64,000 nucleotides of DNA from a virus. Shown in pieces: positions 28,329-62,737 of this stretch. Within the stretch, counting starts at the first letter, position 1, and every line of letters begins with the position of its first letter. Location of the stretch: IMG/VR virus record IMGVR_UViG_3300029268_002499, positions 1-64,000 of that record; one strand, given 5' to 3'. The translations under genes and the position numbers were made by a program. The notes under the pieces were generated by a model. The model had not been told where the DNA came from and searched no databases. It saw only the letters and a program-made list of their open reading frames with translations.

Positions 28329-28399
28329 GCGGGGATAGCTCAACGATAGAGCCCACAGATTGTACTGTGGAGATTCCTGTTAAACTCAGGATCCCCACT
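28329..28399 (+). tRNA. tRNA, probably Thr (TGT), with expanded anticodon loop
   Basis: Acceptor GCGGGGA/TCCCCAC (one C-A mismatch), D-stem GCTC/GAGC, T-arm TCCTG-TTAAACT-CAGGA. The anticodon arm CCACA-GATTGTAC-TGTGG has an 8-nt loop (or 6-nt with a 6-bp stem), one base longer than normal; TGT is the likeliest anticodon. No CCA is encoded. May be an unusual or decaying tRNA. Confidence 0.55.
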
Positions 28400-32170: not shown

Positions 32171-33298
32171 ATGAAAACAGCAGTTATTGGGCTAGGATTT
32201 GGAGACGAAGGAAAGGGCAGAGTCGTAGATTGGCTCTGCTCTTATCGGCCCGATTCTTTAGTGGTAAGATTTTCAGGAGGATCTAATGCAAGTCATAAAG
32301 TTTATAAACCAGATGGTTCTGGATTTCATGCTTTTTCAAATTTAGGAAGCGGAACATTCAGAGGATGCCCAACCTACTGGTCAGAGTTTTGTACTTTCGA
32401 TCCTGCCGATTTATTGTTTGAGGCCGAATACATCAAAAAAGCAGGAGTTGAAAATTTTAAACTCTATGTGAATTTAGATTGTCCAGTTGTTACCACATGG
32501 GATAAAAGATACAACAAGATTCAAAATGATATGACTTTTCATGGGAGTTGCGGTGTCGGTCTAGGAGCTACTCATGAAAGAGAAGAAAATCATTATTCTC
32601 TTAGGGTGAGAGATTTATTTTATTATGATCTGAGATCACAAAAAGTAACAGAAATTATAAAATATTATAAATCTAAAGGAATCAAAGCAACCCTAGAAGA
32701 GATCGAACTATTCTTCATTTGTGTAGAGAAATCTAAAGAATTATTCACACCAGTTGAAAGCATCCCTCAATCTGTTAATTATCTATTTGAAGGATCACAA
32801 GGATTAATGTTGGATCAAAATTATGGTGTTTTTCCACATGTAACAAGAAGCAATACAGGAACACAAAACATCATTAAAATGGGATTTGATATGAATTCCT
32901 TCTTTCATGATAGGTGTTTTCTTGTCACTAGAGCATACCACACTCGACATGGAAATGGATATCACCCAACCGACCATATTCCGCATAATATTAAAGAGAA
33001 TCCCTATGAACAAAATGTAGAAAATTATCAGGGAAAGTTTAGAAGGGGATTACTTGATGTAAGTTTGTTGAAATACGCAATTGAAAAAGATAAGATTTTA
33101 AAAGGTAATCAGTGTGATATGTCAATTGTTATAACATGTCTCGATTTGATAGAAAATGAATGGAGATTTGTTGAGAATGGGGTAATTGTAAATTGTTTAG
33201 ATGAATATGAATTTCTAACAAAGATTAAAAAATTACTACCCTATCCTATAGCGGTTAGTCGTACACCTTATGGGAAAATCGAAATATTTACACTCTAA
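32171..33298 (+). CDS. purA: Adenylosuccinate synthetase family (PurA or PurZ-like)
   Basis: 375 aa. P-loop GFGDEGKGR (9-17, with Asp12), catalytic-acid region GGSNASHKV (His42), IMP-like loop GSCGVGLGATHE, EGSQGLMLDQNYG, TRSNTGTQN, aspartate loop GKFRRGLLD and C-terminal VSRTPYGK. The family joins Asp to a purine nucleotide (IMP in PurA, dGMP in phage PurZ for 2-aminoadenine DNA). Length is short for bacterial PurA (about 430) and close to PurZ/archaeal forms (about 340-370). Asp12, which I recall as usually lost in PurZ, is retained, so the substrate is uncertain. No MazZ or DatZ seen nearby. Confidence 0.9.
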   Translation: MKTAVIGLGFGDEGKGRVVDWLCSYRPDSLVVRFSGGSNASHKVYKPDGSGFHAFSNLGSGTFRGCPTYWSEFCTFDPADLLFEAEYIKKAGVENFKLYVNLDCPVVTTWDKRYNKIQNDMTFHGSCGVGLGATHEREENHYSLRVRDLFYYDLRSQKVTEIIKYYKSKGIKATLEEIELFFICVEKSKELFTPVESIPQSVNYLFEGSQGLMLDQNYGVFPHVTRSNTGTQNIIKMGFDMNSFFHDRCFLVTRAYHTRHGNGYHPTDHIPHNIKENPYEQNVENYQGKFRRGLLDVSLLKYAIEKDKILKGNQCDMSIVITCLDLIENEWRFVENGVIVNCLDEYEFLTKIKKLLPYPIAVSRTPYGKIEIFTL

Positions 33299-51970: not shown

Positions 51971-52420
51971 TCATTTTTGAATGATCTCTAGGTAATTTTC
52001 AAGAACACTTTGATCTTTTGCTTTAAAAAATTTGTAAACATTCTTTCTTTTTTGTTGTGTATTTCTTGAAACAATAGCCATATTTATGAAAAAATATTTT
52101 CCTTTGAGACGTTTTCCCTTAAAAACCACAGTCATACTAGCATTTGAGAATTTGATTATATCACATTTTCCAGAATCTAATTTTTTGATTGTTCCTGCGC
52201 CATATTCATTATCAGGAATAGTGCCTGTAAATAGAGCATTTTCGCGATTATGGTCAGATGTTCTAGTTATGTATTTAACGACACCTGGTTTATCCGAAGG
52301 AAATTCATTCATTGCAAAAGATGCCCAATTTTGGCTTGAAGGCATCTGAAATCTCAAGTCAAAATGAAGTCCTCGTTTTTTTGCTTTATGTTCAAATATT
52401 GCAAACTCACTCTTGGTCAT
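51971..52420 (-). CDS. DNA ligase D-type 3'-phosphoesterase domain
   Basis: 149 aa single domain. FEHKAKKRGLHFDLRFQM (about 9-26) with His11, His19 and Asp21, TSDHNRENALFTGTIPDNEY (about 54-73), GAGTIKKLDSG and LKGKYFFIN follow the LigD phosphoesterase (PE) domain, which trims 3' ribonucleotides and phosphates to give ends a ligase can seal. Found here without fused ligase or polymerase. The ligase at 6024 may be the partner. Confidence 0.88.
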   Translation of the reverse strand: MTKSEFAIFEHKAKKRGLHFDLRFQMPSSQNWASFAMNEFPSDKPGVVKYITRTSDHNRENALFTGTIPDNEYGAGTIKKLDSGKCDIIKFSNASMTVVFKGKRLKGKYFFINMAIVSRNTQQKRKNVYKFFKAKDQSVLENYLEIIQK

Positions 52421-52480
52421 TTAAAATCCTTCCAATCTCTTTTTATATTTTGTTCTGAACTATTTTAATAAACAAAATAC

Positions 52481-52496
52481 TATATATATAAATTAA
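52481..52496. promoter_or_regulatory. Promoter motif, weak variant
   Basis: TATATATATAAATTAA, shifted version in the divergent gap between the (-) phosphoesterase and the (+) gene at 52563. It may serve either or both sides. Confidence 0.4.
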
Positions 52497-52562
52497 CAAT
52501 AATGAAGAAACTGTGAAAGTTTTCGCCCGGGGAAACCCAGCAAATTTTTTGAGGAAAAAATT

Positions 52563-52700
52563 ATGAAAAAGAAAAAAGAAAAAACAAAAGTGCGTGATTG
52601 GATTGCTGTTCATGCGCATTTTCGAAAAATCTGGATCAAAAGGAATGATAAAAGGGTCATTCCCAGACAAAGAAAAAACGCCAACTCCGAGGAGCAGTAG
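52563..52700 (+). CDS. Small basic protein
   Basis: 45 aa, GAGGAAAAAATT site, nearly half Lys/Arg, with WIAVHAHFRKIW recalling small basic phage proteins with an HAH motif. An overlapping (-) frame is judged spurious. Confidence 0.55.
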   Translation: MKKKKEKTKVRDWIAVHAHFRKIWIKRNDKRVIPRQRKNANSEEQ

Positions 52701-52740
52701 TTTCACCTATTGTTCTACTGCTTCCATTGTTCCACTGAGG

Positions 52741-52774
52741 AGGGATACCAATTGCCCGGTATCCCTTCTCTTTC
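52741..52774 (+). terminator. Intrinsic terminator
   Basis: AGGGATACC/GGTATCCCT, 9-bp stem, followed by TCTCTTTCT. A further hairpin GCAGTAG/CTACTGC lies just upstream (52695-52721). Confidence 0.65.
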
Positions 52775-52806
52775 TATGTTTTATATTCCAAAAACTGGAG
52801 GTAAAT

Positions 52807-53298
52807 ATGGTAGAGGAACAAAGTTACAAAAGGTTTAATGCCATCAAATTTCCTGATGGTAAAATTGGAATTCCTGACTACAAACCTACAGGTTCCCATT
52901 TGTTAATTGTTGGGAATGAGGGGTGTATAAGGATGGATACAAATAGTGTAGTATGGACCAATGGCAAGAACATCAAAAAAGGTCCAGGAATTCAAACAGA
53001 CTACGTAAGGGGGGCGCTGTTTGAAACAAGGAAGAGAAGGAAAGCGTTTGGAATTTCGAAACAGGGAAAAGATGCATTAATAAGAATCCAATGTCCAATA
53101 GGAACAGATTTAAGCAATCTACAATTAAAATCAAAATATACAAAGATAACAACAGGAGATATTCAAATTTCATACTTTGTGTTAGAATCGGAGGTCGTTG
53201 GTTTGAAGACAGAAGAGAAATGCATTAGCATAATGAAGAAGTCATCGAGTTCGGAATCCTCACAAGTATTTTCAAAAGAGGAATACGACAGATTATAA
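52807..53298 (+). CDS. Hypothetical protein
   Basis: 163 aa, ATG after GGAGG. Basic middle region, Ser-rich end (SSSSESSQVF). Not recognised. Followed by a 9-bp terminator. Confidence 0.65.
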   Translation: MVEEQSYKRFNAIKFPDGKIGIPDYKPTGSHLLIVGNEGCIRMDTNSVVWTNGKNIKKGPGIQTDYVRGALFETRKRRKAFGISKQGKDALIRIQCPIGTDLSNLQLKSKYTKITTGDIQISYFVLESEVVGLKTEEKCISIMKKSSSSESSQVFSKEEYDRL

Positions 53299-53313
53299 AA
53301 CCCCTTGCAGGAC

Positions 53314-53336
53314 GTGGTGGGACAAAATCCCACCAC
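53314..53336 (+). terminator. Intrinsic terminator
   Basis: GTGGTGGGA-CAAAA-TCCCACCAC, 9 bp, followed by AACTTT. Confidence 0.65.
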
Positions 53337-53357
53337 AACTTTAAAAAAGGAGAATTT

Positions 53358-53777
53358 ATGAAAATATACAAAATAGAAAATGAAAACATTTTTTTAGTCG
53401 ACCAAAAGAAAAAAGACCGTTTTTATTTTACAATAAAAACAGAAGAAAAAGAATTAAGGAGTGTATGTGATGGTTGTTGCAAAAAATTTCAAACAGAAAC
53501 ATCTCTAGAATCTGACGATATTATAGATGTTGTGTGGAATCCAAACAAAAATCCATACATTCTTAACATCGAAGAAAAAATGAAAAAAACAATCATCAAA
53601 TCTATGAAAGATTATATACATTCTTTAATTACATCTGAGATAACAAAAGATGCATATTATGCTTTCAAACTTCATAAAATGTTTTCACCAATAAAAGACG
53701 GAACGTTATGCCCCACCTGCAAAGAAAAGGCATCTACACTCAAAAAGAAAATTGAATTGTACGATGCACATCTTTAA
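53358..53777 (+). CDS. Zinc-binding hypothetical protein
   Basis: 139 aa. CDGCCKKF (about 37-44) and CPTCKEK (about 118-124) form a probable zinc site with helical intervening segment. AAAGGAGAA site. Not recognised. Confidence 0.65.
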   Translation: MKIYKIENENIFLVDQKKKDRFYFTIKTEEKELRSVCDGCCKKFQTETSLESDDIIDVVWNPNKNPYILNIEEKMKKTIIKSMKDYIHSLITSEITKDAYYAFKLHKMFSPIKDGTLCPTCKEKASTLKKKIELYDAHL

Positions 53778-53787
53778 TAAAAAATAA

Positions 53788-53806
53788 GGGGGCATTGAAT
53801 GCCCCC
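53788..53806 (-). terminator. Intrinsic terminator
   Basis: GGGGGCAT-TGA-ATGCCCCC; (-) strand ends in TTATTTTTT. Closes the metallophosphoesterase gene; also adjacent to the (+) gene end. Confidence 0.7.
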
Positions 53807-53813
53807 AACAAAT

Positions 53814-55022
53814 TTACTTTCTTTCAAACAAAGGTTTTTCTATTTTTTTAACTTTAGGTTCAATTTTATGATGATAGTTTTTCCAATCATCTTCAATTTC
53901 ATCGAATACTTGGAATTTCGCCTCATAGTTATACAATAAACCATTACTTCCAAGACATGCACTGATGTAGTAACCACCGATAGTTGGGGTTAATCCTAGT
54001 CTCTTCAAGTAGTTTGTTGTTCCTTCGAAACATCCACATTGTGCCCCAAAAATACTTCCGAACATTGCTTGAACTTGTGTGTGTAAATGGCCTTGAAAGA
54101 CGAATCGAATACTTGGTTTTTCTTTGAATCCCCAAGCCATTTTTCTTAGTTCAACATACGATATTTGTTCAATATTTTTCTGGAGTTTGTAGGAATATGC
54201 ATATGGACAACCACCTGTTGGGTGAACCATTTTTGCATCAACATTATTTAATATTGGAACATCTGCATCATCAAATCCAATATAATGAAAATCTGATCTC
54301 TGATTTGCAATAGATTGAACAATATTATACCCACCATTTTTTATAAATGAATAATCATGATTTCCACCTAACATATACCATTCAAATCCTTCAGGTATAT
54401 TTGCCAAAACACTTTGAGCTTGTTCATCAGCTGTTACAGCATACAAATCATTTATTTGACCAGAATACACACCAACCCCAGCAACTACATCACCAGGAAC
54501 AAGAATATGTTTTATTCCTCTTTCTCTTGCAACCTCACAGAATTCTTTAAGTGCTGTTATTTGACAAGATTTAGAACCGAAATGAAGATCAGAAGCAACA
54601 GCAAATTTAACTTCAGTTGTACCTATTTGTGTTATTCTTTTTTCTGCAACTGGTGTAGACTTATTAATATAAACTTGGTGACCATCAGTTATTATTTCAG
54701 TTCCTAAACTCTTGTGATAATGAATTAGAGCTTCGATTGTTGCTGGAGTACAATTAAGAATGTTACACAAATGAATCAATTTAATACTTGAATTACTTTT
54801 TACAATCTTCAAAAAGGCTTCTTCGATATTGGAAACATCAACTTTTGAAACTTTTACATCTAACTTTCTTCTATACTTCCCCATGTAAGAATTAAAAGTT
54901 TTTCTATCTGCAGTATACCCTCTAAGTTTGGCCCCTGCATAAATTTCAGTTGGAGACTTCCCTTCCGACAATGACTTTAAAACGTACTCATTTACTTCTC
55001 TAGGATAATTGTAACGACTCAT
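53814..55022 (-). CDS. Metallophosphoesterase with N-terminal HTH region
   Basis: 402 aa; ATG 55022 after GAGGTG, with an in-frame GTG six bases upstream. N-terminal helical part (about 1-140) with helix-turn-helix-like segments. Calcineurin-type core: ASDLHFGS, PGDVVAG, GGNH-DYSF, VHPTGG, FQGHLHTQ in order. Phages carry such enzymes near DNA repair or recombination genes (SbcD/Mre11-like), but no nuclease partner is seen here. Substrate unknown. Confidence 0.85.
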   Translation of the reverse strand: MSRYNYPREVNEYVLKSLSEGKSPTEIYAGAKLRGYTADRKTFNSYMGKYRRKLDVKVSKVDVSNIEEAFLKIVKSNSSIKLIHLCNILNCTPATIEALIHYHKSLGTEIITDGHQVYINKSTPVAEKRITQIGTTEVKFAVASDLHFGSKSCQITALKEFCEVARERGIKHILVPGDVVAGVGVYSGQINDLYAVTADEQAQSVLANIPEGFEWYMLGGNHDYSFIKNGGYNIVQSIANQRSDFHYIGFDDADVPILNNVDAKMVHPTGGCPYAYSYKLQKNIEQISYVELRKMAWGFKEKPSIRFVFQGHLHTQVQAMFGSIFGAQCGCFEGTTNYLKRLGLTPTIGGYYISACLGSNGLLYNYEAKFQVFDEIEDDWKNYHHKIEPKVKKIEKPLFERK

Positions 55023-55112
55023 AAGCACACCTCACATTTCTGAATTTTTAATTTGTTATAATTGATAAAAAATAAATCCTGCTTACATAGTCGTTTTAAA
55101 ACAAGACAATCC

Positions 55113-55126
55113 TATATATATTAATT
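55113..55126 (+). promoter_or_regulatory. Phage promoter motif of the ubiquitin-like operon
   Basis: Exact TATATATATTAATT, followed by GTTGATAAAACG, 30 bases before the ATG at 55156. It is the only promoter-like motif before 55156-60190, so all five genes may be one transcript; the terminator is at 60197. Confidence 0.6.
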
Positions 55127-55155
55127 GTTGATAAAACGAAAGAAGGAGAACAACT

Positions 55156-55377
55156 ATGAAATTTATAAGATGTCTAACACATCGAAGAGAAGTAGTATAT
55201 CTGAAGATTTCAGAAATAATTAAAGTAGAGGAAGTAGAGGATGCTCCATTCAATTTCTATATCTCCATTAGAGATTCCTACAATGGAGCAGTTGAAGTTG
55301 TAGAGGCCTATCCTAGTTCGGATGTTATAAATTCTGCAAGGAAATTTGTGGAATATTTAGAAAAAGAAGAATCGTAA
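55156..55377 (+). CDS. Hypothetical protein
   Basis: 73 aa, AAGGAGAAC site. Small alpha/beta protein, first gene of the unit carrying the ubiquitin-like genes. Not recognised; a factor for the system is possible. Confidence 0.65.
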   Translation: MKFIRCLTHRREVVYLKISEIIKVEEVEDAPFNFYISIRDSYNGAVEVVEAYPSSDVINSARKFVEYLEKEES

Positions 55378-55434
55378 AGATTCTTTTTTAGAAAACAAAT
55401 ATTTTTATTTAAAACAAAAATTCAAGGAGGAAAT

Positions 55435-57894
55435 ATGAATCATGGTATTTATTTAGACAGAGACGATGGGTGTTTTATTGCCCAATTTGAAAGAATGGGT
55501 GATTCAGAATACAGACCAGTAAGAACAACTGGAAGAATTAATGCTTCAAATTTTTACAAAATTTTCAATCCATCAGCATTATCACTTTTACCTTTGAATT
55601 GCAGATTTGCAGATACTATTGGTGGTAATATGAGATTTGTAATTGAAAATCCTCCTCAATACAGAACTTTAAATTTTGAATGGATTTTTGATCATGAGTT
55701 AACAAGACTGAAAGAAAGTGGCGAAGACATCAAATATGGATACACAAGTGATTGGATAGCAAAGATTAAAGAAGAAAAAGTTTCCCTAAGACTTTATTTT
55801 CCTTATGTTATTTTTATTATTACTATTAGTAAGGGGGATTATGGAATAGGCGCAAATCTTATGATTTTTTACAACATTAAACCTTTGAGATCTTTTAATG
55901 ATCCATTAATTTATGCAAATCTTCCAAACATATTTGATACAGATATGGTATGTGCTGGAAATTCTTCCACTACTTGGAAGTCAAATGATATTCAGTCATC
56001 TCTTGAATCAATAGTTTCTTCATTCTGGACATCATCATTCAATCATGAAGCAAACAGCAGATTCAATATGTATTCTACATCTCCTATGACTATTTTAAGA
56101 TGGGCTGCGATGTCTAAAACAAATCCGAGTGGAATTTTTGATCCAAGTCTTTGGAAATTTTCTAGTAGAACACTCAACGATATTTTATTGTGTGATAATA
56201 TTTATCCAAATACTGCTTTTGACACAATATATGAAAGTGGAAAAACCGTTTTTTCTGGTCTTTTGACATCACAAACGAAAGCACATAATTATATTTTGCC
56301 AAATGGATCACATTGTCTAAAAATACTGAATGTTGGTGATAGAATTAAATTTAAAGGAAAAATATTTTATATTGAACAGTTTCCAATAAATTCAGATCAT
56401 GTTATGGTGAAAGATTCACTAGAAGGTAAAAAAACAAAAGAAGTTGGTTTGCATGATATAAGTTTGGAAGAAGCAGAACTTACATCAGCAGAACTTAATA
56501 CTTTTAATGGCAAAAAAATAGAAGTCAAAGCTGGTGATATTATCAAAGATGATCTTCAGTATATGCAAATTCTAGCGATATATAAAGATTTCTTTGGCAA
56601 CATTGAAATTTCAACAGATATGAAAACAATAGATATTACAAATTCTAAAGAAAAGGATCAAACTTTATATAAACTTATTGATTTATCAAAAGGAATTACT
56701 GTCGGAAGCAGAGTCATTGAACTTAATCCAACCTTCAGATTAGTTAATAGAATGACACATACAAATGGTTGCATCGGAATTTATACAATTTCTTCGTGTC
56801 ATCCAGAAAAATTTTCATGTAGATCTGGAAAAATTATTATTTCAATGTCTGATGGTAATGTATTTGATACGCAACATATTGCTTCAGGAACCATAGACAT
56901 AGTTGACACAAGTTCAATTGATGAACTTCCATTTATGAAAACATTACTTATTGGTGAGACAGTAGCAATTGGCCCAATGAATGTAGACTTTAACAACTAC
57001 AAAGTCTTTTTAAAAGAGTGGAAAAATTTAACAACAAAGGAAGTAAAAACTTTTAAGGATGGATATCAGGGAATAAATTATTTATTCCCAGAAGAAAGCA
57101 CTTCTTTACATATTCCGTCTCTCTTTGGAAAAGACATAAATTTCAAGGTAGGGGATACAGTTGCTTATGGAAGTAGTGAAAGTTATACACTAAAAATTAT
57201 TACTGGATTTTTAAAGAGTACTGATAATAGAACACTTTCTATCGGTCTCGCAGATACCATAGAAGGAACACCAGAATTCGAGCCTTATCTTTGTGACAAT
57301 GGATTTGTTGCACAAAAAAATAAATGCAATCTTTATGGTGTTTATGTAAAAGGCATGGAATTAATCAGAAAAATTGATTTATCTATGTTTGGAAGACATA
57401 TTAAGGTTGCGGTTTCAAAAATTCCTGGTCTTCCAAAAGGAACACAGTGTAAAATTATTGGTGAATTCACAGATTGTTTTGGTGAAATTCTTCTCCTTCA
57501 TAATGGATACACCATAAGAAAATCTGATATTGGAACACTTTTCAAATTGTTAGAGACAACCAGTAGGGAATATTATGAAATAACACCTACTCAATTGGGT
57601 GGGGAAATAAGAATTTCTGTAGGAGATAAATTCCAGCAGCGCTGGGCATCCACTAATTATGTTCTTCTGCCTAGCAGAAATGAAAGAGGTCGATATTTTT
57701 CAATACCCGGGCTTGATGGATATTGTGGTAATGAACACAGATTATCTCAGGCAAAAATTTCAGGGTTTGTATCTCCTAGAATTCAAAATCTTCCAGATCT
57801 TATTAAAAAGAGAAATATCTTATATCCTCCGGTAAGAAATAATTATCCAACACCAGAATCTTTTGGTTACTACTCAATTTATGAAAGGAGCTAA
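55435..57894 (+). CDS. E2-like (PRTRC-B type) protein with long beta-repeat tail
   Basis: 819 aa. N-terminal 1-215 resembles PRTRC system protein B, an E2-like fold: PYVIFIITISKG (123-134), YNIKPLRSFNDPLIYANLP (146-164), then MVCAGNSS (Cys173, aligned with the VCxG cysteine) and SSFWTSSFNH (195-204). Residues 260-819 hold several VGD-x-V/I-type segments (VGDRIKFKG, AGDIIKDD, IGETVAIG, VGDTVAYG, VGDKFQQ), suggesting tandem SH3-like barrels; not seen in usual PRTRC-B proteins. Two bases precede the JAMM gene. Confidence 0.65.
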   Translation: MNHGIYLDRDDGCFIAQFERMGDSEYRPVRTTGRINASNFYKIFNPSALSLLPLNCRFADTIGGNMRFVIENPPQYRTLNFEWIFDHELTRLKESGEDIKYGYTSDWIAKIKEEKVSLRLYFPYVIFIITISKGDYGIGANLMIFYNIKPLRSFNDPLIYANLPNIFDTDMVCAGNSSTTWKSNDIQSSLESIVSSFWTSSFNHEANSRFNMYSTSPMTILRWAAMSKTNPSGIFDPSLWKFSSRTLNDILLCDNIYPNTAFDTIYESGKTVFSGLLTSQTKAHNYILPNGSHCLKILNVGDRIKFKGKIFYIEQFPINSDHVMVKDSLEGKKTKEVGLHDISLEEAELTSAELNTFNGKKIEVKAGDIIKDDLQYMQILAIYKDFFGNIEISTDMKTIDITNSKEKDQTLYKLIDLSKGITVGSRVIELNPTFRLVNRMTHTNGCIGIYTISSCHPEKFSCRSGKIIISMSDGNVFDTQHIASGTIDIVDTSSIDELPFMKTLLIGETVAIGPMNVDFNNYKVFLKEWKNLTTKEVKTFKDGYQGINYLFPEESTSLHIPSLFGKDINFKVGDTVAYGSSESYTLKIITGFLKSTDNRTLSIGLADTIEGTPEFEPYLCDNGFVAQKNKCNLYGVYVKGMELIRKIDLSMFGRHIKVAVSKIPGLPKGTQCKIIGEFTDCFGEILLLHNGYTIRKSDIGTLFKLLETTSREYYEITPTQLGGEIRISVGDKFQQRWASTNYVLLPSRNERGRYFSIPGLDGYCGNEHRLSQAKISGFVSPRIQNLPDLIKKRNILYPPVRNNYPTPESFGYYSIYERS

Positions 57895-57896
57895 AA

Positions 57897-58988
57897 ATGT
57901 TTAAAGTATTTTTAAACGATGGTAAAAACGTGATGCCAAAAGATGATGTTTTTTACATTATTGGCAAAAAAGGTGTTTTTCTCAGAAAAAAACTTGGACT
58001 GGTTGATGCATTGGTTCCAGTTAAACAACTTTCTTTTCTTGAAGATGTTCAACCATTTGTAAATTTAATGTTACCAAAACTGAAAAAGAATATTGTTGGG
58101 CAGGTTGCTGGATTCTTCAGAGCAGTTTATAATGAATATAGATACGAGGCTGTTGTAATGATTTATTTGAATGAGGATCGAAAGAATTATACAATTCATG
58201 TTCCTCCTCAAAAAGTTACTGCTGCAAGTGCATCTTATATGAGAAATGCAGCATTTACAGACAAAACACTTGTTTGCTCAATTCATAGTCATGCCTCAAT
58301 GTCTGCATTTCATTCTGGAACTGACGTTGCTGATGAAGAATCTTTTGATGGGCTGCATGTTACTTTTGGAAATATGGATGAAGATCCACAAATGACTATT
58401 GCAGCAAGTGCAGCAGCCAATGGTGAAAGATGTATTGTTCTTCCTGAGCAATATCTTGATGTTAAATTGATAGGCGACGCTGCTGAAGAACCTGAAGTTG
58501 ACGAAACATCAACAAATTATCAAAAAAATAAGCATCTCGTAAAATATTATTTCAAAAAGACGCCAAGATACGAAATCCTTAGCAGACCATTTCCAAAAGA
58601 GTGGATGAATTTTGTTGAGGGAACGAAATGGACACCGAGTGTCTATTCATATGCACGTACAAATTGGTGGGATGAGCGTAGCTACAAAAAATCAAAAGGT
58701 TTACCATTTGATGAAGAGGTAAAAAGACCTTTTGTAATTACACCACAAACACCACGGGTTCCAAAAACAAAAGAGGTATTTGATCCATGCAAAGAATGTA
58801 TTTTTTCTGACAAAAAAGCAACATGCTATTGTGATGGGCATCCAAAGCTTGCCGCAGATGCAGAACTATCAATGACAAAAGATGAGTACACAAATCCTGA
58901 CTATTTAATTGGTAATGAAGATTTTACGAGGGAAGAACTATTAAAAATGTATGGATTTTCAGATGACGAAATATTAAAAGGATATTAA
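57897..58988 (+). CDS. JAMM/JAB1 isopeptidase (PRTRC-A type)
   Basis: 363 aa. Start MFKVFLNDGKNVMPKDDVFY and LGLVDALVPVKQL match PRTRC protein A. The JAMM metal site is complete: HSHASMSAFHSGTD (130-143: His130, His132, Ser140, Asp143), with Glu84 as likely upstream Glu. Such enzymes process Ubl precursors or remove Ubl from targets. C-terminus (about 240-363) includes CKECIFS...CYC, a zinc-like insert. AAAGGAG site. Confidence 0.9.
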   Translation: MFKVFLNDGKNVMPKDDVFYIIGKKGVFLRKKLGLVDALVPVKQLSFLEDVQPFVNLMLPKLKKNIVGQVAGFFRAVYNEYRYEAVVMIYLNEDRKNYTIHVPPQKVTAASASYMRNAAFTDKTLVCSIHSHASMSAFHSGTDVADEESFDGLHVTFGNMDEDPQMTIAASAAANGERCIVLPEQYLDVKLIGDAAEEPEVDETSTNYQKNKHLVKYYFKKTPRYEILSRPFPKEWMNFVEGTKWTPSVYSYARTNWWDERSYKKSKGLPFDEEVKRPFVITPQTPRVPKTKEVFDPCKECIFSDKKATCYCDGHPKLAADAELSMTKDEYTNPDYLIGNEDFTREELLKMYGFSDDEILKGY

Positions 58989-59004
58989 AAAGAAAGGGGG
59001 ATAC

Positions 59005-59691
59005 GTGGAGAAAATTAAAAACGTTTCAATCATTGGATTAGGAGGTGTAGGATCTATACTATCAAATTACGTTTCTAAGTTTCTTGAACACAAAAGGGAT
59101 TTTACAACAATTAAACTAGTTGACGGCGATGAATTTGAATTGAAGAATCTTGAAAGGCAAGAATTCACTGAGTTAGAGAACAAGGCTATTGCCAAAACGA
59201 AGGAGTTATCCTCAAAGTTCAAAAACTTACATTTTGAATCAATGCCAAATTTCATTGACGCCGAAAACACAAAAGACCTGGACTGTTCCGATATTATTTT
59301 TGTTTGTGTAGATAATCACCGTACACGGAAAATCATTGATGAATATGCACATTCTAGAGAGAATGTATGCATAATATCCGGCGGTAATGAATACACAGAT
59401 GGGAACGTCCAGATCTATATTAGAAAAGGCAGCAAGGACATGACTCCTTCTCTATCTGATTATCATCCAGAAATTGAGAATCCTGCAGATAAACATCCTG
59501 GTGAAATGTCTTGTGAGGAGTTAATGAACAGTGAGCCACAGCTATTATTTACTAATATGTCTGTAGCCACTATGATGCTTTGGTCTTTTTATAATCATTG
59601 CGTTATGGATAATCATGAAAAGTCCGAAGTTTATTTTGACATGGTTTCAATGAAAGCAGATTCAAAAGCAAGAAAAGTTAAAACATTGTAA
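59005..59691 (+). CDS. E1/ThiF-like adenylating enzyme (GTG start)
   Basis: 228 aa, GTG after AAAGGGGGA. Nucleotide site GLGGVG (11-16), acidic LVDGDEFELKNLERQ (38-52: Asp40/Asp42, Asn48, Arg51) and CVDNHRTRK (101-109) follow the ThiF/E1 family that adenylates the Ubl C-terminus. Cys170 (GEMSCEEL) is the candidate thiol acceptor. No zinc CxxC pairs, and shorter than ThiF (about 250). Follows the JAMM gene by 16 bases. Confidence 0.88.
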   Translation: MEKIKNVSIIGLGGVGSILSNYVSKFLEHKRDFTTIKLVDGDEFELKNLERQEFTELENKAIAKTKELSSKFKNLHFESMPNFIDAENTKDLDCSDIIFVCVDNHRTRKIIDEYAHSRENVCIISGGNEYTDGNVQIYIRKGSKDMTPSLSDYHPEIENPADKHPGEMSCEELMNSEPQLLFTNMSVATMMLWSFYNHCVMDNHEKSEVYFDMVSMKADSKARKVKTL

Positions 59692-59719
59692 AAACAAAAA
59701 AGTAAAAAGGAGAATAGTT

Positions 59720-60190
59720 ATGACATTTGTAAGAAGAGAATTAGCGGAAAAAAGCAAATCAGAGTTGAAGGACATTTGTGATGATCTTGGAATTTATTAC
59801 AGGGCAAAATCAACCAATGATTTTCTTGTCAATTTGATTCTTAACCATCAGGCTCTTGAAGAAGATGATGCATCAATGGATACATCAAATGATTCTGAGC
59901 CAAGTTCTGGATCCAGTGATTCAGTCTCTTACCTCAATGCAGGATTGGCAGCAGTTCGCGAAGAAGATGGTTCTGTCAATGCACTTATTTATGTAACATG
60001 TGGTGCATCAACAGGAAACTTCCCGATAGTTGGCAAATCAGTTGCAGCAGCAGGGGAACTTCTCAGGGAAGCTCTAAACATTGACATTTCTTCAACACCA
60101 ATTGTCAATGGTGCAAGGGTTTCATGGGATTACGTAGTAGAGGAAGGCGATTCACTAGAGTTCACAAAACCTTCTGGAAGAAAGGGATAA
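59720..60190 (+). CDS. Ubiquitin-like protein with N-terminal SAP-like helix
   Basis: 156 aa. Residues about 6-44 (SKSELKDICDDLGIYYRAKS) look like a SAP/HeH DNA-binding helix-extension-helix; a Ser/Asp-rich linker follows; residues about 73-156 form a beta-grasp fold with IVNGARVSWDYVV and GDSLEFTKP. The C-terminus ends SGRKG, one Gly rather than GG, as in ThiS/PRTRC-C-type Ubls. It is the presumed substrate of the adjacent E1, E2-like and JAMM proteins. AAAAAGGAGA site. Confidence 0.75.
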   Translation: MTFVRRELAEKSKSELKDICDDLGIYYRAKSTNDFLVNLILNHQALEEDDASMDTSNDSEPSSGSSDSVSYLNAGLAAVREEDGSVNALIYVTCGASTGNFPIVGKSVAAAGELLREALNIDISSTPIVNGARVSWDYVVEEGDSLEFTKPSGRKG

Positions 60191-60196
60191 TTATAA

Positions 60197-60214
60197 AGGG
60201 GGAGAAATCCCCCT
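60197..60214. terminator. Bidirectional terminator
   Basis: AGGGGG-AGAAAT-CCCCCT stem between the (+) Ubl operon and the (-) hldD-like gene; A/T runs short. Confidence 0.5.
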
Positions 60215-61187
60215 ATTCCCCAAGTGTTTTATTTTTTTTGCTTAAATAATTTATAACATAATCATCAACAGATTCTTCAATTGTCATCATTTCTTTATTA
60301 TAACCAGTATTTCTTAACTTCGATATATCTGCACATGTATAATTTTGATAATCAAAATTGTCGTGATCTATGAATTCAATCTTCTTTTCTTTATTCATAG
60401 ATTTACAAACACAATCGACAAGTTTATTAAAACTATTCGCAACACCTGTGCCAATATTGAAAAGCCCATTTGCATTTTCATTAAATATAAGAAACATTAT
60501 TATGTCAACAACATCCTTAATATAAATGAAGTCTCTTTGTTGTTCACCATCATTCACACCTTCTTTATTTGACTTGAAAACTGTTATATGTTCATCTTTC
60601 TGGAGTCTCTGGAAGGATTTATAGACGAGACCTGTCATATGATCCTTGTGGTATTCATTGGGTCCAAAAACATTGAAAAACTTGAGTCCTGTGACCTTAT
60701 TCACTATTTTTGTTTTTAACATCCATACATCAAATGAGTGTTTTGAATTAGCATATAAATTAAGAGGTTTTAATAATAACGTAGTATTGTCGTCATCACT
60801 AAATCCAAATTCTCCATCACCATATGTCGCAGCCGATGATGCATAAATAAATTTTATATCAAAACATGCACAGAATTTTGCAATAGATTTTGACGCATCA
60901 AAGTTTTCTCTTTTTATCAATTGTTCATCTGTAATATCTGTTGATGAGATTGCCCCCATATGAATTATATGACTAACTTTAGAAAAAATTCTAGATTCAT
61001 TTAAATTGCTCATGAACAGTTCTTTATCTATACATCCTTTAAATTTCAATCCTACTAAATTTTTAATCTTTTGACTAGTGATATTCTTCAAATTATCAAC
61101 AATTAAAATATCTTCATATCCTAATTTATTTAACCCCCATATTATCGCACTTCCAATAAATCCCAATCCACCAGTAACGATAATCAT
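60213..61187 (-). CDS. hldD: ADP-heptose 6-epimerase (HldD/RfaD-like)
   Basis: 324 aa, extended SDR. TGGLGFIGS (5-13) binds NADP; VDNLKNI, HMGAISSTD, YASSAATYGDGEFGF (Ser/Thr), LYANSKHSFD (YxxxK) and FFNVFGPNEYHKDHM follow HldD closely. Interconverts ADP-D,D- and L,D-heptose, an LPS precursor and innate immune signal. A kinase (hldA-like) is at 38617. Isomerase, phosphatase and adenylyltransferase of the path are not in the window. Confidence 0.93.
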   Translation of the reverse strand: MIIVTGGLGFIGSAIIWGLNKLGYEDILIVDNLKNITSQKIKNLVGLKFKGCIDKELFMSNLNESRIFSKVSHIIHMGAISSTDITDEQLIKRENFDASKSIAKFCACFDIKFIYASSAATYGDGEFGFSDDDNTTLLLKPLNLYANSKHSFDVWMLKTKIVNKVTGLKFFNVFGPNEYHKDHMTGLVYKSFQRLQKDEHITVFKSNKEGVNDGEQQRDFIYIKDVVDIIMFLIFNENANGLFNIGTGVANSFNKLVDCVCKSMNKEKKIEFIDHDNFDYQNYTCADISKLRNTGYNKEMMTIEESVDDYVINYLSKKNKTLGE

Positions 61188-61237
61188 TATTCTACCTCTC
61201 GGTGTAACAGTTATTTGTATTTTGTTCCTTAGTTTTC

Positions 61238-61251
61238 TATATATATTAATT
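61238..61251 (+). promoter_or_regulatory. Phage promoter motif
   Basis: Exact copy in the divergent gap between hldD (-) and the gene at 61289 (+), 38 bases before that start. Confidence 0.6.
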
Positions 61252-61288
61252 ATCAGAAATAAAGATCAACGAAGAAAGGAGAGAAAAA

Positions 61289-61603
61289 ATGCTTGCACTA
61301 ACTATGGTCCTGCAACAAAAGTTGTCTCATAGGTTGAATCAAAAGATGAGATTAGAGTTGAGGGTGGATTGCAGAGTTTGTGGCGAAAACATTGGTGAGG
61401 CGCCTCTATCCGAAAGGATGATAGAAAATGTTACACATCTGAGTCAGGGAGGATCTTTTACGGATATTTGCCCCAACTGTTTCACGCTTTGTGTTGGGGA
61501 CAACGAACAAGTAATTAAAGAATGGAACAGGATTGGGGAAGATCCTGTAGAACTTGTCAGGTTTGCAAAAAGACTAAAAGGAGAATATGATGAAGAAAGG
61601 TAA
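61289..61603 (+). CDS. Zinc-binding protein
   Basis: 104 aa, GAAAGGAGAG site. CRVCGENIGEAPLS (about 29-42) and CPNCFTLC (about 63-70) form a treble-clef-like zinc site. Not recognised. Confidence 0.7.
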   Translation: MLALTMVLQQKLSHRLNQKMRLELRVDCRVCGENIGEAPLSERMIENVTHLSQGGSFTDICPNCFTLCVGDNEQVIKEWNRIGEDPVELVRFAKRLKGEYDEER

Positions 61604-61862
61604 ATACATAGTTAAAATAGAAAAAGGAAATCTACAATCATTACTTACAGTGTTTGCCCCAACTGACAAACCAATTCCAGGAATGATTAAAGCTCTAGCC
61701 CCACACAGGCAAAGCTACGACGACAAAATGCTTATTCCTAGAAATCTAAGCAATCGAGACATCGTGGATTTGTTGTTCTTTGGTCAGGAGATATCAATCA
61801 ACCAATTAAATAGCGAAAAAATTGAAGTGGAAGTGTTTGACGATGAGGTAAACTTCCACTGA
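61587..61862 (+). CDS. Hypothetical protein
   Basis: 91 aa, overlaps the previous gene by 17 bases, AAAGGAGAAT site (ATGATG; the second ATG at 61590 is equally possible). Not recognised. Followed by a strong terminator. Confidence 0.65.
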   Translation: MMKKGKYIVKIEKGNLQSLLTVFAPTDKPIPGMIKALAPHRQSYDDKMLIPRNLSNRDIVDLLFFGQEISINQLNSEKIEVEVFDDEVNFH

Positions 61863-61868
61863 GCAATG

Positions 61869-61897
61869 AAAACAGATGGTTACACACATCTGTTTTT
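61869..61897 (+). terminator. Intrinsic terminator
   Basis: AAAACAGATG/CATCTGTTTT, 10-bp stem with 8-base loop and T-run. Confidence 0.8.
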
Positions 61898-61981
61898 GTC
61901 TAATATATTTTTTTTCTAAAAATAATACTAAGAAGAGATAATTTATTATCTCATACAATATATAGTATTAAATTGTGTAGT

Positions 61982-61995
61982 TATATATATTAATT
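61982..61995 (+). promoter_or_regulatory. Phage promoter motif
   Basis: Exact copy followed by ATTGAAGAAAG, 48 bases before the ATG at 62043. The 180-base gap holds the terminator at 61869 and this motif. Confidence 0.6.
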
Positions 61996-62042
61996 ATTGA
62001 AGAAAGGGGATTTATAAAATTTTATTTTAAGGGGGAAAAGAA

Positions 62043-62489
62043 ATGTTTAAAAATGTTGAAGAAGAAAAAAGAAAGTCGAAAAGAATTAAAACAAAAGATT
62101 TGTTTGGATTTTTTCAAACGGAGGATGGCAGATACGAATGTGAAATAATAGATATTTCAGAAGGGGGGCTTCGATTTAAAATTGCTTCTGGTAATATTTC
62201 AGAGCTTATTTCATTTTCAGAAAATCAAGTATTGGTTGATATATCCCCAATCAATGAAAATGGAAATTTTGCTTGGGGGTACGGATTAATAAGAGACTTC
62301 TTAGATCAGATATGCTCAATTGAATTTTATGCAGCTAACACTCAAAAAATAAAAGAGTTGATAGCTAAAGAAAGTTTAAAAGAGAAAATGAGAAATTCTA
62401 TAGAAGAATCAGTTAAATCATCCGCAGAAAGAAAAATGACTCGGAAAAAAGCTATACTTGAACTTGATAGGTTATTTTCACATTTATAG
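62043..62489 (+). CDS. PilZ domain protein (c-di-GMP receptor)
   Basis: 148 aa. Both ligand motifs are intact: RKSKR (10-14, RxxxR) and DISEGG (37-42, DxSxxG), in a beta-barrel order. C-terminal helix (about 105-148) with ELDRLF. PilZ proteins change shape on binding cyclic di-GMP, a host second messenger. Phage examples are rare in my knowledge. Promoter motif 48 bases upstream. Confidence 0.85.
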   Translation: MFKNVEEEKRKSKRIKTKDLFGFFQTEDGRYECEIIDISEGGLRFKIASGNISELISFSENQVLVDISPINENGNFAWGYGLIRDFLDQICSIEFYAANTQKIKELIAKESLKEKMRNSIEESVKSSAERKMTRKKAILELDRLFSHL

Positions 62490-62521
62490 AATGTTCATTT
62501 AATCAAAATAGGAGGATATAA

Positions 62522-62737
62522 ATGAAAAAAATGTCAAACATCTTTATCGCGGGAATGATTGTTATTTTCTTCGTGGCAGAAGAAGGCCCTAACGCAACAT
62601 TCAATGAATTTTGTTTATTATGGTGTATGAAAATTATTGTTGCAATTTTGGTAGGTGTATATTGTATCTACAAAGGATATATTTATATTCCAAATGGAGG
62701 AGAAAATGAGAAATTTGGTAAGTATAAGAAGAATTGA
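62522..62737 (+). CDS. Two-pass membrane protein
   Basis: 71 aa, ATG after AGGAGG. Helices at about 4-20 (MSNIFIAGMIVIFFVA) and 33-54 (LWCMKIIVAILVGVYCIYKG). Overlaps the RNA ligase start by about 32 bases. Not recognised. Confidence 0.65.
   Translation: MKKMSNIFIAGMIVIFFVAEEGPNATFNEFCLLWCMKIIVAILVGVYCIYKGYIYIPNGGENEKFGKYKKN

Follow-up and report, generated by a model that had tools for sequence, protein, structure and literature searches.

Does a bacterial virus encode a complete ubiquitin-like tagging system of its own? The question was raised by four co-directional genes at positions 55435-60190 of a 64,000-nucleotide stretch of viral DNA (the window in what follows), which covers positions 1 to 64,000 of IMG/VR record IMGVR_UViG_3300029268_002499, a viral contig of 64,764 bases. 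An original prediction, made from the letters of the window alone, had assigned to them the roles of an E2-like conjugating enzyme, a JAMM isopeptidase, a ThiF/E1-like activating enzyme and a ubiquitin-like modifier (Ubl). Reading of the open reading frames (ORFs) gave the coordinates as first noted, and the families and active sites described below agree with these roles. The cassette is likely, with a probability of about 0.82, to be a phage-encoded, self-contained system for Ubl conjugation and deconjugation, built on the core known as type 6d or PRTRC.

Four genes, their active sites and their conservation

The features of the cassette are as follows.

55424-55430, plus strand: Shine-Dalgarno sequence AAGGAGG, 4 nt ahead of the first ATG (direct reading)
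55435-57894, plus strand: E2-like conjugating enzyme, 819 aa, with an N-terminal Prok-E2_D domain and then a long beta-rich C-terminal extension
55927-55953, plus strand: predicted E2 catalytic core N165 x7 C173 (Asn codon 55927-55929, Cys codon 55951-55953)
56332-57639, plus strand: beta-rich C-terminal extension, possibly SH3/Tudor-like repeats (approximate limits, weak Foldseek matches)
57897-58988, plus strand: JAMM/JAB isopeptidase, PRTRC A-like, 363 aa (PRTRC_A and Prok-JAB matches)
58146-58325, plus strand: JAMM active site (Glu84 58146-58148, His130 58284-58286, His132 58290-58292, Ser140 58314-58316, Asp143 58323-58325)
58788-58841, plus strand: Cys-rich C-terminal JAMM motif CKEC..CYCDGH, possibly zinc-binding (pattern scan)
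59005-59691, plus strand: ThiF/E1-like activating enzyme, 228 aa, GTG start (ThiF and PRTRC_ThiF matches)
59512-59514, plus strand: codon of the predicted E1 catalytic Cys170
59720-60190, plus strand: Ubl, 156 aa (AlphaFold, Foldseek and homologue domain matches)
60176-60187, plus strand: C-terminal GRKG tail with the predicted conjugation end Gly156

The genes are tightly spaced, with 2 nt between the E2 stop and the JAMM start. No RNA element was found in a search over 52400-62600, and promoter matches at the cassette were no more than expected by chance. A profile built from five phage JAMMs identified 80 loci in IMG/VR viral contigs, which a scan with the window JAMM as a single protein did not yield at all; the aligned E1s offered no segment of sufficient conservation for a scan of this kind. 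Loci are referred to by L numbers; L001 is the window's own copy, and the 86 loci examined include both the window and L001.

The 819-residue protein matched Prok-E2_D of Pfam above the gathering score (E 3.3e-6) and PRTRC_B of NCBIfam below the curated cut-off (0.003), and BLAST matches were obtained at 22 other loci. The Cys173 proposed originally as the active residue was found in 71 of 71 distinct phage sequences, together with the preceding Asn (71/71) and a C-x-G motif (71/71). The spacing from Asn to Cys was exactly 8 in 61 of the 71. In classical E2s the Asn of the HPN motif lies equally far from the Cys (N77-C85 in UBE2D). Comparison of the long E2s with the short phage E2s and PRTRC B by hhalign gave a probability of 99.2%, with an alignment that spans the Cys.

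The 363-residue protein matched PRTRC_A (1.2e-9, NCBIfam, under the cut-off) and Prok-JAB (1.4e-4, Pfam, just under the gathering score). The predicted JAMM residues His130, His132 and Asp143 were each present in 72 of 72 distinct phage homologues and so were Glu84 and Ser140, so that the site is fuller than first claimed. When the clade JAMM profile was searched against the PDB, every match was to RPN11/PSMD14 (best E 0.002). The protein has an N-terminal extension, and no Arg or Trp was conserved above 85% over the 72 JAMMs. C4-type motifs similar to the Cys-rich motif of the window were observed by pattern scan in the JAMMs of L006, L008, L015 and L029. In Acinetobacter phage ME3 (L086:3736-6846) the JAMM gene is seemingly split exactly at the HSH active-site motif by an insert of about 2 kb that holds additional ORFs alongside a tRNA-Met and a group I intron (Rfam E 3e-20).

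The 228-residue protein matched ThiF (1e-17, Pfam) and PRTRC_ThiF (3e-13, NCBIfam, under the curated cut-off), and no Pfam match to a rhodanese domain was found in it. The ThiF/E1 motifs that had been predicted are conserved over the phage homologues, with Cys170 and Asp103 each retained in 68 of 68 distinct sequences. In Vibrio phage D69 (L003:8833-9819) the E1 frame is open throughout and no ATG, GTG or TTG precedes the G-motif. Translation might begin at a non-standard codon there, or be reached by frameshifting out of the JAMM gene.

The 156-residue protein alone gave no family match in Pfam or NCBIfam. An AlphaFold model made with 23 homologues reached a mean predicted local distance difference test (pLDDT) score of 80.5, with values above 90 in the helical N-terminus and a beta-beta-alpha-beta-beta order in the C-terminus. 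The layout is a SAP/Rho_N-like N-terminus (about residues 1-50), an acidic/Ser linker and a beta-grasp (about residues 73-156), as the prediction of a beta-grasp Ubl had it; the refuting outcome named for this protein, a lack of the beta-grasp, did not come up. The best PDB matches by Foldseek were overwhelmingly NEDD8, SUMO, ubiquitin, ISG15, TGS, MoaD and TtuB, with weak E-values (best 0.05), and the N-terminus superposed on Rho_N/SAP-like domains at about 1-2 A. The homologue at L022, a tandem of two, matched TGS (1e-7), ThiS (7e-5) and SAP (4e-6) in Pfam.

K155 and G156 of the Ubl tail are invariant in the 23 aligned Ubls. Among 85 cassettes, and with up to 12 further residues accepted past the motif, an ORF ending in GxKG lay next to the JAMM gene on the coding strand at 66/85 loci versus 1/85 on the opposite strand; thirteen control motifs gave 1-10 of 85 loci on the coding strand. 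Several relatives encode tandem Ubls joined at GxKG, with two units (L022, L037, L040, L054), three (Vibrio phage D69, L035), four (Bacillus phage KLEB27-3, L081) or six (L060), and in others the GxKG is followed by a tail of 1-11 residues. Prok_Ub of Pfam matched the poly-Ubl of KLEB27-3 in four stretches (4e-27) and that of L060 in six (6e-30). Such poly-Ubls and tails call for a peptidase and are the substrate a JAMM maturase would need. In Salmonella phage Arash (L004:97-304) a Ubl gene ending in RRTGTKG is unannotated, and gp251c of GenBank is another frame of that stretch. Extra SAP-like proteins without a Ubl were observed directly ahead of the E2 gene in two loci (L011:7052-7492, L017:7126-7488), with a weak match to the Ubl hidden Markov model (HMM).

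The E2, JAMM and E1 genes occurred together in 80 of the 86 loci when searched with iterated HMMs. In three pairs of relatives the ratio of nonsynonymous to synonymous changes (pN/pS) was below 0.7 for every cassette gene, with E1 and Ubl at roughly 0.15-0.42, values which indicate that purifying selection acts on all four. Pairwise distances of the three enzymes were correlated (Spearman 0.46-0.59), with p-values inflated by non-independence. Families, active sites, co-conservation and selection are thus read from the sequences themselves. A chance arrangement does not explain the cassette, because the active sites are kept in 68-72 distinct homologues, the genes stay adjacent, selection is purifying and the GxKG end shows the strand bias given above.

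Comparison with known systems

In PRTRC systems, protein A is the JAB peptidase, B the E2, C the Ubl and ThiF the E1. Iyer et al. (2006, PMC1779556) described the related type 6d as made up of an E1, an E2 whose Cys has a His downstream of it, a JAB whose N-terminal alpha+beta domain bears an invariant Arg and Trp, a largely helical protein, and a small Ubl that has a C-terminal Gly. All four families are common to the phage cassette and this known system. The complete JAMM site, the rhodanese-free ThiF E1, the family-D E2 with its Cys and the beta-grasp with a C-terminal Gly were all found in the phage cassette. The resemblance to PRTRC that had been suggested was borne out by HMMs trained on the phage proteins, which detected the annotated PRTRC B (6e-14), A (2e-43) and ThiF (3e-49) of a Sphingomonas plasmid. 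The PRTRC C of that plasmid ends in AVGTKG, the same GxKG end as in the phage Ubls, and the poly-Ubl of KLEB27-3 matched PRTRC_C four times, under the cut-off. GenBank labels single cassette genes as PRTRC A or ThiF.

The phage cassette nevertheless differs from PRTRC. The A, B, C and ThiF proteins of the window all scored under the NCBIfam cut-offs. ParB was found in the plasmid control but not in the window record, KLEB27-3, D69, Arash or ME3, and the lone ParB-like match in phage records (L017) was weak (1e-6, far under the cut-off). Protein E was likewise found in the plasmid control and in no phage record searched, and protein F gave no match anywhere, the plasmid control included. The phage E2 carries an extension of about 570 aa, the phage Ubl is joined to a SAP-like domain and the carriers are large phages. 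For the E2 extension, whose model is of low confidence, Foldseek gave weak matches (best E 9e-3), the hits being SETDB1, 53BP1 Tudor and BAH domains. The absolutely conserved His of type 6d downstream of the E2 Cys was usually Asn in the phages; the site reads mostly FN(x)D in phages, with THP nearby in PRTRC B and N203-H204 in the window. As to the helical partner, each phage group has conserved extra ORFs without a telling Pfam match, none of which lies inside the window cassette. The cassette is a phage variant of the type-6d/PRTRC conjugation core and not PRTRC proper, because ParB and E were not found in the phages and the downstream E2 His is usually Asn, while the three enzymes and the modifier of type 6d are present.

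BilABCD, an ISG15-like anti-phage system, consists of E1, E2, JAMM and a two-unit Ubl processed by the JAMM (PMC11354881). Its E1 is made of fused inactive and active halves and its E2 has a CEHH motif (PMC11354881). The phage cassette has the same working set, whereas BilABCD is host-encoded and directed against phages; PADLOC gave only a weak E1-BilD match (E 0.06), and its Bil models did not match the E2, JAMM or Ubl of the window. CBASS Cap2 is an E1-E2 fusion which conjugates cGAS itself and has no dedicated Ubl, in contrast to the separate genes and the Ubl of the phage cassette. The two are alike in the ThiF-type E1 adenylation domain (PMC10097602; PADLOC E1-E2, 2e-8). In tail assembly of lambda and T1, TapI is a Ubl and TapK a JAB-NlpC protein (PMC1779556), so that both Ubl and JAB are phage-encoded there, but without E1 or E2. 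The JAMM deSAMPylases of Borgs likewise place a JAMM on a mobile element but, in the part of the report available (PMC12660748), appear as removal enzymes, with no full cascade described.

Proposed mechanism, substrate and alternative explanations

From the conserved residues, the activity, its direction and its substrate can be proposed as follows. The E1 would use ATP to adenylate the Gly that closes the -GRKG end of the Ubl, and would then carry the Ubl on Cys170. The Ubl would then be handed to Cys173 of the E2, where the invariant Asn165 may stand in place of the classical HPN Asn, and the E2 would move it onto a lysine or a similar group of the substrate. No separate E3 candidate was seen; the choice of substrate may lie with the C-terminal extension of the E2 and perhaps also with the SAP/Rho_N-like domain of the Ubl. 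The JAMM would trim Ubl precursors, such as the poly-Ubls and short tails of relatives, and take the tag off again.

Several observations weigh against this reading. Structure prediction had been proposed as a check on the E2 fold. The Pfam and profile-profile matches support the fold, but the AlphaFold model of the 819-residue protein was weak (pLDDT 62) and a Foldseek search with it did not show an E2 fold. A PDB search with a profile of the short phage E2s yielded nothing either. Because the model is too weak, the E2 fold rests on the Pfam match, the profile-profile match and the catalytic spacing. The His that is usually replaced by Asn in the phages is said to complete the type-6d active site. 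The Ubl tail is -KG and not -GG, and the window Ubl needs no maturation because it has one unit only and stops right at the Gly. Two further points, both from the Arash/Vibrio group, are given below, where they bear on the substrate.

Virion or host proteins had been named as possible targets. The genomic context points to replication or transcription proteins at least as much. In the sister clade of the window, genes for RNA polymerase beta' and beta lie downstream of the cassette and an SbcC-like gene lies upstream. In a gut phage contig (L005) a DnaN-like clamp gene follows directly after the E1. Plasmid JAMM-E1 pairs of Lysinibacillus, Chroococcidiopsis and Alkalihalophilus (L089, L090, L092, L093) have a DNA polymerase III gene (dnaX, dnaN or delta') adjacent or a few genes off. 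Our best guess, a tentative one, is that the tag goes onto machinery of the phage itself that is associated with DNA or with transcription.

The same chemistry could act on virion proteins, the tag regulating DNA packaging or the assembly of heads or tails, in a manner reminiscent of the Ubl/JAB pair of the lambda tail. A tail sheath gene lies about 5 kb upstream of the cassette in the window, the cassette of the Arash/Vibrio group adjoins terminase and tail genes, and the E1 and E2 of Arash (gp246c, gp248c) are labelled 'structural protein'. However, the basis of that label is not stated and the JAMM of Arash does not bear it, and the RNA polymerase and SbcC-like neighbours in the sister clade are not structural genes. 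A virion substrate is regarded as an unlikely alternative. Tagging of host proteins, which would block defence or redirect metabolism and mirror the bacterial anti-phage Ubl systems, appears quite unlikely. It would fit the sporadic spread of the cassette over distant large phages and the use of similar enzymes by bacteria against phages (PMC10097602), but less well the strong conservation of the active sites and gene set and the replication genes that accompany the plasmid homologues.

That the Ubl is a sulphur carrier of ThiS/MoaD type, serving nucleoside or cofactor synthesis with no protein conjugation, was judged improbable. Ubl homologues match TGS/ThiS models and the E1 matches ThiF/MoeB models, but a JAMM and an E2-family protein in which the Asn and the C-x-G are invariant stand alongside almost without exception, poly-Ubl precursors occur, and the neighbour families scanned included no recognisable sulphurtransferase. 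Finally, there is next to no chance that the contig is plasmid or mis-binned bacterial DNA: true PRTRC systems reside on plasmids and some contigs of metagenome-assembled genomes (MAGs) hold homologous cassettes, but the tail sheath, terminase (PHROG) and endolysin family matches within the window, the cassettes of the sequenced phages KLEB27-3, D69, Arash and ME3, and the terminase present in 17 of 25 cassette-bearing viral records tested (up to 277 kb) refute this for the family. Judged by these marker genes, the cassette-bearing contigs are phages.

Distribution, a probable second module and further observations

When 50,697 records were queried with the cassette proteins, only seven phages (eight records) matched, namely Bacillus phage KLEB27-3, Vibrio phages D69, D181 and D148, Salmonella phage Arash, Acinetobacter phage ME3 (GenBank and RefSeq) and one gut contig. 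No near relative among named phages was found by a search at the DNA level, nor any relative among them by tblastn with the window E2. Homologous cassettes were also found in MAG contigs of Patescibacteria, Chloroflexi, Planctomycetota (a 3.3-Mb contig) and others, although part of these contigs may belong to phages; transfer may thus have run in either direction. Within L095-L117, long-E2 cassettes were observed in MAG contigs of Patescibacteria and others and short-E2 forms in Chloroflexi and Planctomycetota. In a Woesearchaeota MAG contig with a cassette, a tail sheath is apparently present too.

The sister phages of the window probably carry a second conjugation cascade, which is offered as a lead from sequence comparison. 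A second E1, divergent and with a conserved DCRD and a C-terminal tail of TGAA/GGA type, is present in 21 distinct sister sequences, and after it comes a protein of at least about 110 aa. This protein has an HPN motif (HPH in two cases) and a Cys at a spacing similar to that of classical E2s. Its HMM matched 24 loci, and its best PDB match was an E2 (E 0.56). The tail of the second E1 is possibly a fused Ubl. The module was not found in the window, which belongs to a fragment of 64.8 kb. Its position is as follows.

L006:13287-14488, with equivalents in L007-L029, downstream of the first module: divergent E1 with ETGAA/GGA tail and HPN..C protein

Complete E1-E2-JAMM-Ubl cascades are known from bacteria, plasmids and integrative and conjugative elements, and hosts use them to defend themselves against phages. 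A literature search of partial coverage (few subscription papers) turned up no description of a whole cascade encoded by a phage, so that a prior description is possible. By term searches, neither a 2021 jumbo-phage survey covering ME3 (PMC7824862) nor a 2026 review (PMC13282480) mentions a system of this kind. One of these two jumbo-phage papers was written by the group that had carried out the first survey of prokaryotic ubiquitin systems. If the main proposal is true, bacterial viruses also wield ubiquitin-like tagging as a tool of their own, as a conserved and selected part of many large phages, and this would bear on the origin of viral and cellular ubiquitin systems. A wider and more speculative picture is that large phages widely run their own Ubl tagging, in the sister phages with two cascades side by side, regulating viral replication or transcription rather than host defence. 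The cultured phages KLEB27-3, D69, Arash and ME3 provide testable cases.

Other genes of the window were noted in passing. Members of a heptose pathway are present at 60213-61187 and elsewhere, with NCBIfam heptose epimerase matching two proteins and a heptose kinase domain one. Seven tRNA genes were detected with ARAGORN, one of them (28329-28399) with an unresolved two-base anticodon. An adenylosuccinate synthetase-like gene is located at 32171-33298 (Pfam 2e-46), and the window also gave a PHROG match to '2-aminooxy adenylosuccinate synthetase', which points to purine modification of the PurZ type.

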